From assembly GCA_028708865.1 (NCBI GenBank), contig JAQVYA010000005.1:1-49458 (forward strand): DNA of 49,458 nucleotides. Reading direction: 5' to 3'. This DNA is from Desulfovibrio sp. (lineage in GTDB: Bacteria > Desulfobacterota > Desulfovibrionia > Desulfovibrionales > Desulfovibrionaceae). The translations under genes were made by a program, and so were the position numbers. Shown piece after piece: positions 45,134 to 49,458 of the stretch. The notes below the pieces were generated by a model. That model ran no database searches, was not told the origin of the DNA, and saw only the letters and a list, made by a program, of their open reading frames with translations. Every line of letters begins with the position of its first letter. The stretch's first letter is position 1.

Positions 45134-46213
45134 ATGGATCGCGAAAAAAAATTCTCCACACATTTCGACCCTGTGGAGGTCCTGCCCCTGGCAGGACAGG
45201 TGCGCGGCCTGTGCAAAGCCCTGAACGCGCTTCCTGTGCAGCCCTCCCTGGTTCGTGGTCTGGAACAGGAGCTGGTGGAGCAGTCCATCCACGCCAGCGC
45301 GGCCATGGCCGGCAACCCCATGCGGCTGGATGAAGTGCGGGAGTGCCTCTCTGAACAGGGAGCCCAGCCCGAAGACCCGGCAGGCCCCACCGTGGCCCGC
45401 GCCCGGCGCGAAATCGCCAACCTGGGGCTCGCCTACGCCCCCCTGCCCAAAGAACGCACCAAAACCGGAGTGTTCGGCGTTTCCGACGGTTTTTTGCGCA
45501 AGGTGCACGCGGTCATGGTCCAGGGCACGGTCCCGGGCGGCATGGGGGAATTCGTGCCGGACGCGGAAAACCCGGTCCTGGCCCTGGTCACGCGCATCAA
45601 TGGCCAGGACATGTCCGGACTGGAACAGGCCGTACGGGCCGGAATTTTCCACTTCCATCTCTATCGGTTGCAACCCTTTGCCACGGGCACGGGCCGCGTG
45701 GCCCGGTTTTTTGAAAGCTCCATCCTTGCCGTAGGAGGCTACCGTTTCGCCTGCCTGATGCAGCCCCTGTACTATCGGCGGCATATGGACGAATATCTCC
45801 GCTATTTCCCGTCTCCGGACCAGCAGCCCCCTCTCAAGGACTCGCTCACGGAATTTCTCGTCTTCATGCTTCAGGGCCTGCGGGAAAATCTGGAACAAAT
45901 TCGGGAGCAGCTCCATTCCCCCCTGCGGCGCCTGGCCCTGGCCGACCGGTTCCGGGTCCTGGCCGAGGACCGGCGCATCAACCGGCGCACACACGACCTG
46001 CTCCTGCTCCTGCTGGACCGGGAGACCGACCCGGAAACAGGCGCGCCCCTACCCTTCCTGCTCAAGGACCTCTTCCTCAAGCAGCCTTACAAGCTGCTCT
46101 ACAACGATGTCAGCGAGCACACGGCCCGGCGCGACCTGAACCGCCTCCTGGAACTGGGTTTGCTCACCAAGGACGGCACCAGCTACTTTTTCCAGCACCG
46201 CTGCCTGGGGTAA
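45134..46213 (+). CDS. Fic-fold protein with degenerate active site and C-terminal winged helix
   Basis: The 359-residue protein has the Fic layout: an N-terminal helix with HASAAMAGNPMRLDEVRE (aligned to the inhibitory SxxxEGN motif), then IRxLH-like FLRKVHAVMVQGTVPGGMGEF. The core is FHLYRLQPFATGTGRVARFFE, followed by PLYYRRHMDEYLRYF. The catalytic HPFxxGNGR is QPFATGTGR: catalytic His is Gln, the metal-binding acid is Thr and Asn is Thr. The inhibitory Glu is Ala. AMP transfer is therefore unlikely. The C-terminus is a winged helix (SEHTARRDLNRLLELGLL), so it may be a DNA-binding regulator. AGGTGG precedes the ATG. Confidence 0.82.
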   Translation: MDREKKFSTHFDPVEVLPLAGQVRGLCKALNALPVQPSLVRGLEQELVEQSIHASAAMAGNPMRLDEVRECLSEQGAQPEDPAGPTVARARREIANLGLAYAPLPKERTKTGVFGVSDGFLRKVHAVMVQGTVPGGMGEFVPDAENPVLALVTRINGQDMSGLEQAVRAGIFHFHLYRLQPFATGTGRVARFFESSILAVGGYRFACLMQPLYYRRHMDEYLRYFPSPDQQPPLKDSLTEFLVFMLQGLRENLEQIREQLHSPLRRLALADRFRVLAEDRRINRRTHDLLLLLLDRETDPETGAPLPFLLKDLFLKQPYKLLYNDVSEHTARRDLNRLLELGLLTKDGTSYFFQHRCLG

Positions 46214-46382: not shown

Positions 46383-47039
46383 TCAGCGGTCTTCTTCGGT
46401 ACGCAGGGCGCGCACCCGGGGGCCGTGCTCATCGTCGGGAATCAATTCCAAAATCCGGTCCGCGGCTGTGGAAAATTTGTCCACCGGGTGATGCGAAATG
46501 ACCAGCAATTGCAACCCAAGCCGCTCCGCGATCTGGGCGATGAGCTTCATGAACCGGGGCACCAGCTCGGGCTTGAGCCAGCAGTCCTGTTCGTCCAGGA
46601 CAAGAAAGGGCCGGTGCCGGAACGGGTCCAGCTGGGACAGGGCAATGAGCCGCAGGCCCACGGAAAGGATATTGGCCACGGAACCGCCCTGGCCGGAGAG
46701 GATGTCTTCGCGCTGTTCCGGGTCCGGTCCGCTGTGGATGGAAAAATGCACCTGTAGCTTGTTGCTTTTGGTGCTCCGTTCGCTGATCACGGTACGATCC
46801 TGGCCCAGGACTTCGCGCACCGCGTGGGTCAGGTTGGTTTCTATCTCGTCCAGCAGCTCGCCGAACAGCGTGGACGAAAGCTGATCCAGCGTTTGGGAGG
46901 CTTTGGGGGCCAGTTCCAAAAAACGCCCGATCTCGTCATGTTCCCGACGGGAGCTCAAATACTGTTCATGGCGGCTGCGCGCCAGGCCCCCCAGCTGGGC
47001 CACCCGTTCCGAAAGTTCGTCCAGCGCGCTGAAGTCCAT
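46383..47039 (-). CDS. C-terminal ATPase half of a split Rad50/SbcC-like protein
   Basis: The 218-residue protein corresponds to the C-terminal lobe of an SMC/Rad50-type ATPase. A coiled-coil stump (1-60) is followed by an ABC signature motif (DILSGQGGSVANILSVGLRL), Walker B with catalytic Glu (FLVLDEQDCWL), a D-loop region and the H-loop (LLVISHHPVDKF). Walker A is absent, so it must pair with another chain. The natural partner is the gene at 48392, whose N-terminal part is cut by the window end. It begins 3 bp after the small coiled-coil gene and is the last of a four-gene coupled operon. Confidence 0.85.
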   Translation of the reverse strand: MDFSALDELSERVAQLGGLARSRHEQYLSSRREHDEIGRFLELAPKASQTLDQLSSTLFGELLDEIETNLTHAVREVLGQDRTVISERSTKSNKLQVHFSIHSGPDPEQREDILSGQGGSVANILSVGLRLIALSQLDPFRHRPFLVLDEQDCWLKPELVPRFMKLIAQIAERLGLQLLVISHHPVDKFSTAADRILELIPDDEHGPRVRALRTEEDR

Positions 47040-47042
47040 CGC

Positions 47043-47390
47043 CTACAACGCCCCCTGGCGGCCCTGGTCAGGTTCTCCGGCGCGGGCCTCGGCCTGTTCC
47101 ACGGCCTCCAGGCCGCTGCGCACCGCCTCCAAATGCCGACGGTATTCGGCCACGAGACGCTCGTTTTCCTTGCGCCGCTGCTCCAACAAAGCCCGAAGCT
47201 CCTGCGGATCGGAGCTGCCGTACTCCTGCTCGGCCTGGGCCCGGCAATCCTCCAACTGGCGGTTTAGGGTTTCCACGTCCCGGTCCGCCCGGACCTTCTC
47301 ATCGCGCAGCCGTTCATATTCGCGCTTCAACTCGTTCAGTTCAAGCTGCAATACCTGATCCGCGTCCTGCCTTCCGTTATTGATCGCCAT
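47043..47390 (-). CDS. Stand-alone coiled-coil subunit of the split Rad50-like operon
   Basis: The 115-residue protein is nearly all heptad-type coiled coil (LELNELKREYERLRDEKVRADRD to VRSGLEAVEQAEARAG). It has one break around YGSSDPQELRALL and no other domain. Its start overlaps the end of the nuclease gene by 14 bp and it sits immediately before the C-terminal ATPase half. It may therefore supply the returning strand of the Rad50-like arm or act as a clamp between subunits. No named family is recognised. Confidence 0.75.
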   Translation of the reverse strand: MAINNGRQDADQVLQLELNELKREYERLRDEKVRADRDVETLNRQLEDCRAQAEQEYGSSDPQELRALLEQRRKENERLVAEYRRHLEAVRSGLEAVEQAEARAGEPDQGRQGAL

Positions 47391-48402
47391 CCACCACCTC
47401 CTGGTACAAGTCCCAAATCAATCCGCTCTCAGGCGCATCGCCGCACAGATTGGCGGACAAAAAATCCTTTAGCCCGGTACCCTCCCGGCTGCGCCGCATG
47501 GCCAGGCGCTCCAGCCCCTCCAAAAAGCGGGACTCCCCCTGCTGCTCCTGCTCTTCGGGAGGGAATTCCTGGCGGGGAAACACCGTATAAAAATCCTGAT
47601 GCGGCACAGGCCAACGCTCCAGTTCCTCACAACCCGGAGTCCACACCGCTGCCGCGGGCACACGCTCGCGGGACAGGCGCGTAAAGGTCAGCCGGGTGAT
47701 GTTGCCGGGGTTGGCCCACAGGGTGTTCCCGGCCCGCACTTGGGGCTGGACCCGGTGGATGTGCCCGTTCACGAGCCAGTCAATGCCGGGCAGTTCCCGA
47801 ATGCGTCCGGCCCGGTCCAGAAAGTCCGGGAAGCTGATGTTGTGGTGCGTACACCAGACCACGGTGTCCACCTGGGAGCGATCCGGGCCCTGGTCCTTGC
47901 CGGGACCGGGGTAGCCGCGGGGCAGGCGGAACCCGTCCGGCGTGGCCCCCACCAGGACCCGGCCTTGGGGCGATTCAAGCACAAATTGCGGCCCAGGCTC
48001 GTGCATGAGCCGCACCACTCCGGCCTCGCGCAGCACAGCCAGAGAAACATCCCGGGTCCAGCGGGCCTGATATTTGTCGTGATTGCCCACAAGCACAAAA
48101 GGCTGGTGCGGACGGAACAATTCCATGAGTGAAACCAGCAGAGTATTGGAATTATCGCGTGGCCAGTGGAATAGATCGCCCAGGAGCACCAGAGGCATTT
48201 CCCGGCGGCTGGCCTCCTCCAGGCAGGCGGCCAGCTTGTCCAGAACCTGCTCCCGATAGCCGGGCAGCCGCTGACCGGGGGGCACGTCCGCCACGTGCGG
48301 ATCAGCCACGAAAAACAGCCCCTGCCCGGTCACGCAGGGCAGGTCCACTTCGGGCCGGGGCCCCACGGAGAGCGTTTGTGTGACGCTGGATTCATCGGTC
48401 AT
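47377..48402 (-). CDS. Mre11/SbcD-like metallophosphoesterase
   Basis: The 341-residue protein has the calcineurin-type motifs of DNA-repair nucleases in order: FVADPHVAD (DxH), LLGDLFHW (GD motif, with His in place of the usual second Asp), LVGNHDKY (GNHD), CTHHN and NGHIHR (GHxH). A C-terminal extension includes an acidic EFPPEEQEQQGE linker and a helical tail, as in the Rad50-binding part of Mre11. It should be a metal-dependent DNA nuclease. AAGGAGGGCGGCC fixes the ATG at 48402, inside the last codons of the upstream Rad50-N gene. Confidence 0.87.
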   Translation of the reverse strand: MTDESSVTQTLSVGPRPEVDLPCVTGQGLFFVADPHVADVPPGQRLPGYREQVLDKLAACLEEASRREMPLVLLGDLFHWPRDNSNTLLVSLMELFRPHQPFVLVGNHDKYQARWTRDVSLAVLREAGVVRLMHEPGPQFVLESPQGRVLVGATPDGFRLPRGYPGPGKDQGPDRSQVDTVVWCTHHNISFPDFLDRAGRIRELPGIDWLVNGHIHRVQPQVRAGNTLWANPGNITRLTFTRLSRERVPAAAVWTPGCEELERWPVPHQDFYTVFPRQEFPPEEQEQQGESRFLEGLERLAMRRSREGTGLKDFLSANLCGDAPESGLIWDLYQEVVDGDQ

Positions 48403-49456
48403 GGCCGCCCTCCTTGGGAGCCGCTGGTCCGCGCTCCGTTGAGCCCTCGCAGACATGCCCCGCCACTTCCCCGCCGCCGGTAAAGGTATCGGCCTGGAGC
48501 CTTCCACCGCACAGGGGGCAGGTGCCCACAGCTTCCAGGCGGTCTTGAATCTGCCGGCGCAGGTCCTCCAATTGCCGGGCGCGGCCTTTGGCCGCCTCGC
48601 GAGCCGCAGCCAACCGGCTGTCCAGACTGGTCAGTTCCTGAAGTAGTCCGCCCAATGGCTGGACATTGTAGACTTCGGGCACGTATTGCATATTTTGCAG
48701 TGCTTCGGCCTTGGAACGTATAAATTTTGTCTTCTGTTTCAGATGGTTCAATTCAAGAATACAGGTGTTGAGGTCGGTTGTGGTCTGGAGCTGTGGCACA
48801 GGCTGCAACGGTTCCAGCGCCCTGGAGACGCCCATGGCCCGGGCACGGCAACGGGACGTTTCAGCCAGTCGGGCCAAAGCGTTGCGCAGCCGGTCCGTTT
48901 CACGCAGTTCCGGCAGGGCGGCCAGGGAACGCAGAGCGCGGGAACGCTTTTGCGCATGGCCTGCCTGTTGTTCCAGCTCTTGACGCCGGGCCAGGGCCTG
49001 TTCCAGGCCAGGCAGGGATTGCTCCACGGACTGGGCCGCGTTTCCAGCCTCCCGGGCCAGTCTCCCGCGGTGGGTGATCTCCGGCAGGGCGGCCAGCCGG
49101 TCCAGACCGCACTGCAATTCCTCCATGCGCCGGGCCACGCTGCGCTCCCGGATGCGCGCCTCTCGCACCCGGGCATGCAGGGCCTTCTGCATGGCCAACA
49201 GGTGCGCCCCTTCGCTCGATGCAGCAAAAAATTCGGCCAGCCGCGCATCCGCTCCATCCACGTCCAACAAAAAAATAGGTTTTTTCTGGTCCCCAATGTG
49301 CACATCCACCTGGGAACCGTTTTCCAGCAGCACTTCGTCCAGACGCAGGGCATCGCGCACTTCGTCCGGCACCATGCCCCGCCCCAGCTTGCGGAAGTAT
49401 TCCGGTTCATCCTGGCCAGGAAGCCACAGCTCGTACCACGCCGTGTTTTTCTTACG
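48392..49456 (-). CDS. N-terminal half of a split Rad50/SbcC-like ATPase (gene runs off the window)
   Basis: At least 354 residues are visible; the 5' end, where Walker A should be, lies outside the window. The visible start (AWYELWLPGQDEPEYFRKL, then LLENGSQVDVHIGDQKKPIFLLD) looks like the part of a RecF/Rad50-type ATPase head following Walker A. About 250 residues of coiled coil follow. The protein ends just after a zinc-hook-like CPLCGG motif, with a short Gly-rich tail. Rad50 normally continues through a second coil to a C-terminal ATPase lobe; here that lobe is a separate gene at 46383. The stop overlaps the nuclease start by 11 bp. Confidence 0.8.
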   Translation of the reverse strand, partial: RKKNTAWYELWLPGQDEPEYFRKLGRGMVPDEVRDALRLDEVLLENGSQVDVHIGDQKKPIFLLDVDGADARLAEFFAASSEGAHLLAMQKALHARVREARIRERSVARRMEELQCGLDRLAALPEITHRGRLAREAGNAAQSVEQSLPGLEQALARRQELEQQAGHAQKRSRALRSLAALPELRETDRLRNALARLAETSRCRARAMGVSRALEPLQPVPQLQTTTDLNTCILELNHLKQKTKFIRSKAEALQNMQYVPEVYNVQPLGGLLQELTSLDSRLAAAREAAKGRARQLEDLRRQIQDRLEAVGTCPLCGGRLQADTFTGGGEVAGHVCEGSTERGPAAPKEGGHDR

Positions 49457-49458
49457 GT

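Follow-up and report, generated by a model that had tools for sequence, protein, structure and literature searches.

A probable Mre11-Rad50-type complex with the Rad50 subunit opened at the zinc hook in Desulfovibrio, phages and megaplasmids

Four minus-strand genes at the right end of a 49,458-nucleotide stretch of Desulfovibrio sp. DNA (contig JAQVYA010000005.1; G000:C27, hereafter the window), designated A, B, C and D, probably encode a DNA-end processing complex of the Mre11-Rad50 type, resembling SbcCD, in which the Rad50 chain is broken open at the zinc hook. The Walker A motif resides in A and not in D, which carries the signature, Walker B and H-loop, so that the two proteins provide complementary half-sites. 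B is a Mre11-type phosphoesterase, and C is a candidate strand of the helical shaft. Fusions of B to A and of D to A in relatives, together with the joint retention of the genes, strongly imply that A, D and B would assemble, the separate parts forming one ATPase. The likely role of the complex is chromosomal DNA-end repair, in replacement of canonical SbcCD.

Results

The set comprises the 3' part of A (48392..49456), B (47377..48402), C (47043..47390) and D (46383..47039). The stop of A at 48392 and the ATG of B at 48402 overlap by 11 bp, the stop of B at 47377 and the start of C at 47390 overlap by 14 bp, and a 3-bp gap separates the end of C (47043) from the start of D (47039). An initial annotation, made from the DNA letters and their translations, had proposed a Rad50-like ATPase built of separate chains with these same gene boundaries, all of which were reproduced exactly. 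It had also noted a long coil in A ending at a hook motif, Mre11-type motifs in B and a coiled coil as the sole content of C, and each of these assignments is borne out below.

The window contains 354 codons of A, the 5' end of which lies outside it. The initial annotation regarded its proposal as untenable if no Walker A motif lay upstream; the motif was found on contig C215 (L004) of the same genome, whose end shares with the right end of the window an identical 127 bp that match no other place. Such a repeat is the usual way in which assemblers leave contig ends. Because C215 adds the missing 5' part, MIQRIILEQFQAHKHTELELGPGVNVLTGLNNTGKSAVV, with the start codon and the Walker A motif GLNNTGKS near the start of A (L004:3684-4037), the full protein comprises 431 amino acids. 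The ending of the window within A might suggest an assembly error or the recent breakage of a normal sbcC. We rejected this explanation, which is next to impossible, since the same breaks recur in 26 independent assemblies, including isolates, in 35 genomes of the class and in phages, with the catalytic motifs conserved, and since the contig overlap is exact. Nor is the set a product of chance, because alignments A1, A2 and A4 show no variation in the motifs and because, in B, C and D, the codon positions that differ most are the third.

The A protein joins a Rad50-type N-lobe to a segmented helical shaft with a zinc-hook motif at the end of the chain. Its N-terminal part matches Rad50 and Smc6 head structures, and A of one relative matched the AAA_23 domain (1.2e-14). 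As in Mre11-Rad50/SbcCD, the N-lobe bears Walker A and a Q-loop, and a CxxC motif, here a predicted zinc hook, marks the tip of the shaft. This motif, CPLCGG (within GTCPLCGG; 48503..48520), has its first Cys at residue 390, and 38 residues follow the CxxC. Positions 366-437 match the hook structures 6zff and 1l8d of P. furiosus Rad50. CPxC is present in 23/23 full-length A proteins, including that of the window's genome, and in 28/28 phage A proteins, each time close to the C-terminus; it is invariant in the alignment of A together with Walker A and the Q-loop, and Walker A and the hook lie on a single open reading frame (ORF) in the 22 relatives with full-length A. In a fold search, the structural model of A (mean predicted local distance difference test score, pLDDT, 71) matched Rad50 N-lobe chains, among them each of the two chains that make up the Rad50 head 1f2u. 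The modelled shaft is segmented into helices of ~28 residues. Across species, the hook Cys occupies positions 387-394, 426-429, 467-470 or 502-506, that is, steps of ~40 residues (alignment A4), and the ~40-residue shaft modules contain PP.

Gene D encodes a 218-residue ATP-binding cassette (ABC) ATPase C-lobe that follows a helix of ~75 residues and has no Walker A. Its motifs are a signature-like GQGGS (residues 116-120; 46680..46694), invariant in 18 sequences (alignment A1), a Walker B FLVLDE (145-150; 46590..46607), in which LDEQD is invariant, and an invariant H-loop SHH (182-184; 46488..46496). D thus presents the elements of a Mre11-Rad50/SbcCD C-lobe with a divergent signature: the Walker B and H-loop without Walker A are as first annotated, whereas the reported ABC signature reads GQGGSV rather than LSGGE. 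The AlphaFold model of D (pLDDT 84) shows a long helix followed by the C-lobe, and its best Foldseek matches are the separate C-lobe chains of SMC and Rad50 proteins 5h66_B, 9a9j_B and 1f2u_B. The divergent signature, the separation of the genes and the fact that D can stand away from A-B-C would fit two ATPase-like proteins lacking a common ATP site, with D a regulator or pseudo-enzyme. We regard this arrangement as very unlikely, given complementary half-sites, the near-perfect co-retention of the two genes and D-A fusions in three megaplasmid lineages.

Gene C encodes a helical protein of 115 amino acids and is a candidate for the descending shaft strand. Read from its sequence, it consists of two helical stretches of ~45 residues each on either side of a G-T/S-x-DP-type break. 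It is conserved in 26 loci (alignment A3), and a C of the same shape occurs in phages and megaplasmids.

Gene B encodes a calcineurin-like phosphoesterase of the Mre11/SbcD type, 341 amino acids long from the ATG at 48402; a longer form from a GTG at 48507 is possible. It matched PF00149 at 2.5e-9, and its closest solved relatives are T. maritima SbcD/Mre11 structures (1e-5). All five metal-site motifs are present and invariant in the chromosomal family: D34-P-H36 (48295..48303; D and H invariant), GDLFHW (residues 75-80; 48163..48180; GDLF invariant), GNHD (106-109; 48076..48087), HH (47842-47847, from the B alignment) and GHIH (213-216; 47755..47766). The B tree, which is unrooted, has very long branches and leaves the direction of phage/chromosome transfer undecided, separates the B of split sets from SbcD.

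A scan with B recovered 26 loci in Desulfovibrionales and Desulfacinum. The parts lie on separate, mostly overlapping genes in all 26, and A, B, C and D are all present wherever the contig extends far enough. Of 80 genomes of the class, 35 yielded B, 34 D and 32 A, and neither A nor D was found in any of the 45 that lack B. B occurs without A in three genomes: in G330 and G355 it lies less than 300 bp from a contig end, and in G306, where neither A nor D was detected, a B-like gene (G306:C7:9123-9881; E 2e-97) stands alone. A is retained even where it sits on a contig apart from B-C-D (G106 and G073). C and D are separated by a membrane-protein-like ORF in L015 and by an RNase R-like gene in G277. 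A second D fragment, degenerate and with two stops, was observed at G313:C3:305730-305975.

Genera either have the set throughout or lack it entirely: it is present in 35/35 genomes from 10 genera and in 0/45 from the other 13. Upstream of A, mutM, murJ and the gene for a small-domain methyltransferase are kept in 8-13 loci. Inheritance therefore looks vertical and of the housekeeping kind. The window's own genome (89.5% complete), searched for the separate canonical sbcCD whose existence had been raised at the outset, gave no match to canonical sbcC or sbcD; it has RecB/AddA-like proteins. The split set (35 genomes) and canonical SbcC (12 genomes) are anti-correlated, coinciding in one genome (Fisher p 0.0097, uncorrected for relatedness). 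This sole sampled genome with both, G346, has its canonical SbcC-like protein in two ORFs.

The initial annotation had offered DNA-end repair and an anti-phage function side by side; the genus-wise presence and the housekeeping neighbours favour the former and speak against the latter. Defence systems are known to include SMC/Rad50-like ATPases whose coils are short and carry hooks (LmuB, PMC10586767), and PADLOC gave weak matches of both A and D to LmuB, GajA and AriA. These matches, as well as the copies on mobile elements, would suit a Lamassu-like anti-phage or anti-plasmid complex on a Rad50-like ATPase rather than housekeeping repair. We nevertheless consider such a complex unlikely: a strong PADLOC model match is absent, presence is not patchy and strain-variable, the conserved neighbours are not defence genes, and the whole set is borne by phages and plasmids themselves, near replication and recombination genes.

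Microcystis phage Mvi-JY20 carries the whole cassette in the Desulfovibrio order A-B-C-D, as recognized by the Desulfovibrio gene profiles (A 5e-19, B 4e-7, D 5e-9; C 0.012). In Bacillus phage vB_BboS-125 the order is A, an AP2-domain gene, C, D and B. Its D, used as a query, identified 27 viral contigs, all 27 with separate A-C-D-B genes and with every A ending at the hook; A-C-D-B is the order of Bacillales-type phages, and in large phages A, B and D are scattered over several kb. The split A proteins appear from their profiles to be one family, because the phage A profile scores Desulfovibrio A at 1e-22 to 1e-28 and canonical SbcC at 0.12. Viral scans with Desulfovibrio D, with B and A of Mvi-JY20 and with the permuted protein described below detected no further sets, and a viral B-profile scan gave three weak phosphoesterase matches, none with a hook-ended A. 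D-like C-lobe genes were also observed in Tunturiibacter phage Tunturi_5 (L049:5983-6648) and Microbacterium phage Magritte (L050:284-934), with no partner A in the fetched stretch.

Megaplasmids carry two kinds of fusion. The first, B-A, is that of Bacillota megaplasmids: Paenibacillus polymyxa pSC2 encodes a B-A fusion of 841 amino acids followed by separate C and D, and most of this fusion is present in eight plasmid records. A HerA-type ATPase gene (L120:6687-8534; PF01935, 1.7e-11) directly follows (BA)-C-D on pSC2. The proteobacterial megaplasmids of Pseudomonas, Vibrio and Variovorax encode a permuted D-A fusion of 632-663 amino acids, which runs from the N-terminus through C-lobe, N-lobe and shaft to the CPxC hook (L119, NZ_CP031226.1; L121; L122; L123). 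It is flanked by separate C upstream and separate B downstream, and 21 plasmid records match it. Over 123 loci, B-A and D-A are the only multi-part ORFs; A stops just after the CPxC hook, and no ORF continues past the hook from A into D.

The proposal of separate chains thus held in all 26 chromosomal loci and in phages, and that of a break exactly at the hook held in megaplasmids as well; the fused relative that might have contradicted it, with A joined through the hook to D, was not found. The four-part set is kept, while its order varies beyond Desulfovibrionales and Mvi-JY20. The nuclease gene sits in the break, as first described, in these two alone; we rejected this placement as an essential feature on the grounds of the A-C-D-B order in phages and of C-(DA)-B and (BA)-C-D in megaplasmids.

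B genes lie beside that of the permuted ATPase (L119:7823-8731, L122:4944-5816 and L123:4892-5794). The B proteins of Pseudomonas and Vibrio have lost GNHD and GHIH, and to judge from these losses their nuclease is probably dead; Variovorax B is intact. Together with the long modular shaft and its hook, this loss is what a tethering or DNA-clamping machine with a structural phosphoesterase would predict. Such a machine is hardly credible for the family, as the metal-site motifs of B are invariant on chromosomes and intact in Variovorax.

Elsewhere in the window, the plus-strand region 45134-46213 encodes a Fic-like protein whose motif is degenerate (LQPFATGTGR) and whose C-terminal part weakly matches a DeoR-type helix-turn-helix.

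Discussion

Our preferred model of a Mre11-Rad50-type complex opened at the hook follows the established working of Mre11-Rad50. The N-lobe, bearing Walker A and the Q-loop, would come from A, as would the rising part of the shaft and, close to the C-terminus of that chain, the CPxC hook. D would contribute the base of the returning helix and a C-lobe that bears the signature, Walker B and the H-loop. C may be the detached remainder of the returning shaft; we place it there because no fusion of C to A was observed and because the shaft would be completed by C together with the D helix. On binding ATP, two A+D heads would come together around DNA in trans. B, docked at the foot of the shaft, would cleave the DNA end or hairpin, and a single zinc held between two A hooks would tether two complexes. 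ATPase activity, nuclease activity, zinc binding and the position of C are predictions from motifs, models and gene arrangement.

Several observations weigh against this model. The model of A is of moderate confidence, and its ATP site is poorly modelled. When D and C were aligned by profile with canonical SbcC from four relatives, neither gave a significant match, so that C could not be assigned a definite position along the shaft. The lengths of C and D do not track the ~40-residue steps of A, and A therefore cannot simply pair along its full length with C and D; its extra modules must be self-folded or left unpaired. Finally, the loss of motifs from Pseudomonas and Vibrio B means that some lineages can do without nuclease activity.

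We also put forward, tentatively and with some doubt, a broader scheme that includes the circularly permuted Rad50. The hook would be a free chain end and the returning strand C a separate, exchangeable piece; release of C might open the shaft and so act as a regulated gate, a feature absent from canonical Rad50, and the length of the shaft would evolve in ~40-residue modules.

Among known systems, SbcCD/Mre11-Rad50 (TIGR00618, TIGR00619) shares with the split set the Mre11-type motifs, the Rad50-type half-sites, the helical shaft and the CPxC hook. It differs in that here Rad50 is divided into A, C and D and is always open at the hook. The curated sbcC and sbcD models gave no match above cut-offs, and we did not assign the set to SbcC/Rad50 because both lobes on one chain through the hook, the trait tested, were absent from the 123 loci.

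Archaeal Rad50 is a single chain. The Mre11-Rad50-HerA-NurA operons of archaea resemble pSC2 in the HerA-type ATPase beside the set; no HerA was seen beside the Desulfovibrio cassette. The gp46 protein of phage T4 is one polypeptide, undivided, unlike the Rad50 described here. The likeness of T4 gp46/gp47 to the phage sets lies in its being a phage-borne Mre11-Rad50 complex (PMC3175470). Lamassu LmuB is a small Rad50-like ATPase with a hook (PMC10586767), yet it is a single chain of ~650 amino acids in defence systems, and its match here is at E 1e-3.

Mre11/Rad50 fusion proteins on plasmids and phages were described by Yoshida et al. 2011 (PMC3175470), who did not observe one NTPase segment in Anaerostipes and in Bacillus phage 0305phi8-36. 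These cases are possibly B-A fusions of the pSC2 kind. In that description the missing C-lobe was not located and no permuted form was reported, whereas here the C-lobe is the separate gene D. The PHROG families phrog_16465 ("exonuclease"), phrog_18563 and phrog_15167 ("ATPase") correspond to phage A, C and D. The split set matches them (at L013, A versus phrog_16465 at 1.1e-27 and D versus phrog_15167 at 7.5e-8), C by shape and a weak profile match alone. There the pieces are named singly and the split Rad50 goes unrecognized, and plasmid D is annotated as "chromosome partitioning protein ParA" or "hypothetical". The labels "ParA", "exonuclease" and "hypothetical" can now be corrected in phages, megaplasmids and sulfate reducers, and the split family may explain Rad50-like proteins that seemingly lack half of their ATPase. 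We found no description of a split Rad50 in the open literature searched, the coverage of which was incomplete, so that prior notice is possible.

Rad50 is pictured as one polypeptide that turns back on itself at the hook. Here its parts are separate, fused as B-A or permuted as D-A, and never joined through the hook, so that a natural system is available in which to test whether the covalent hook turn matters to tethering or to signalling along the coil.

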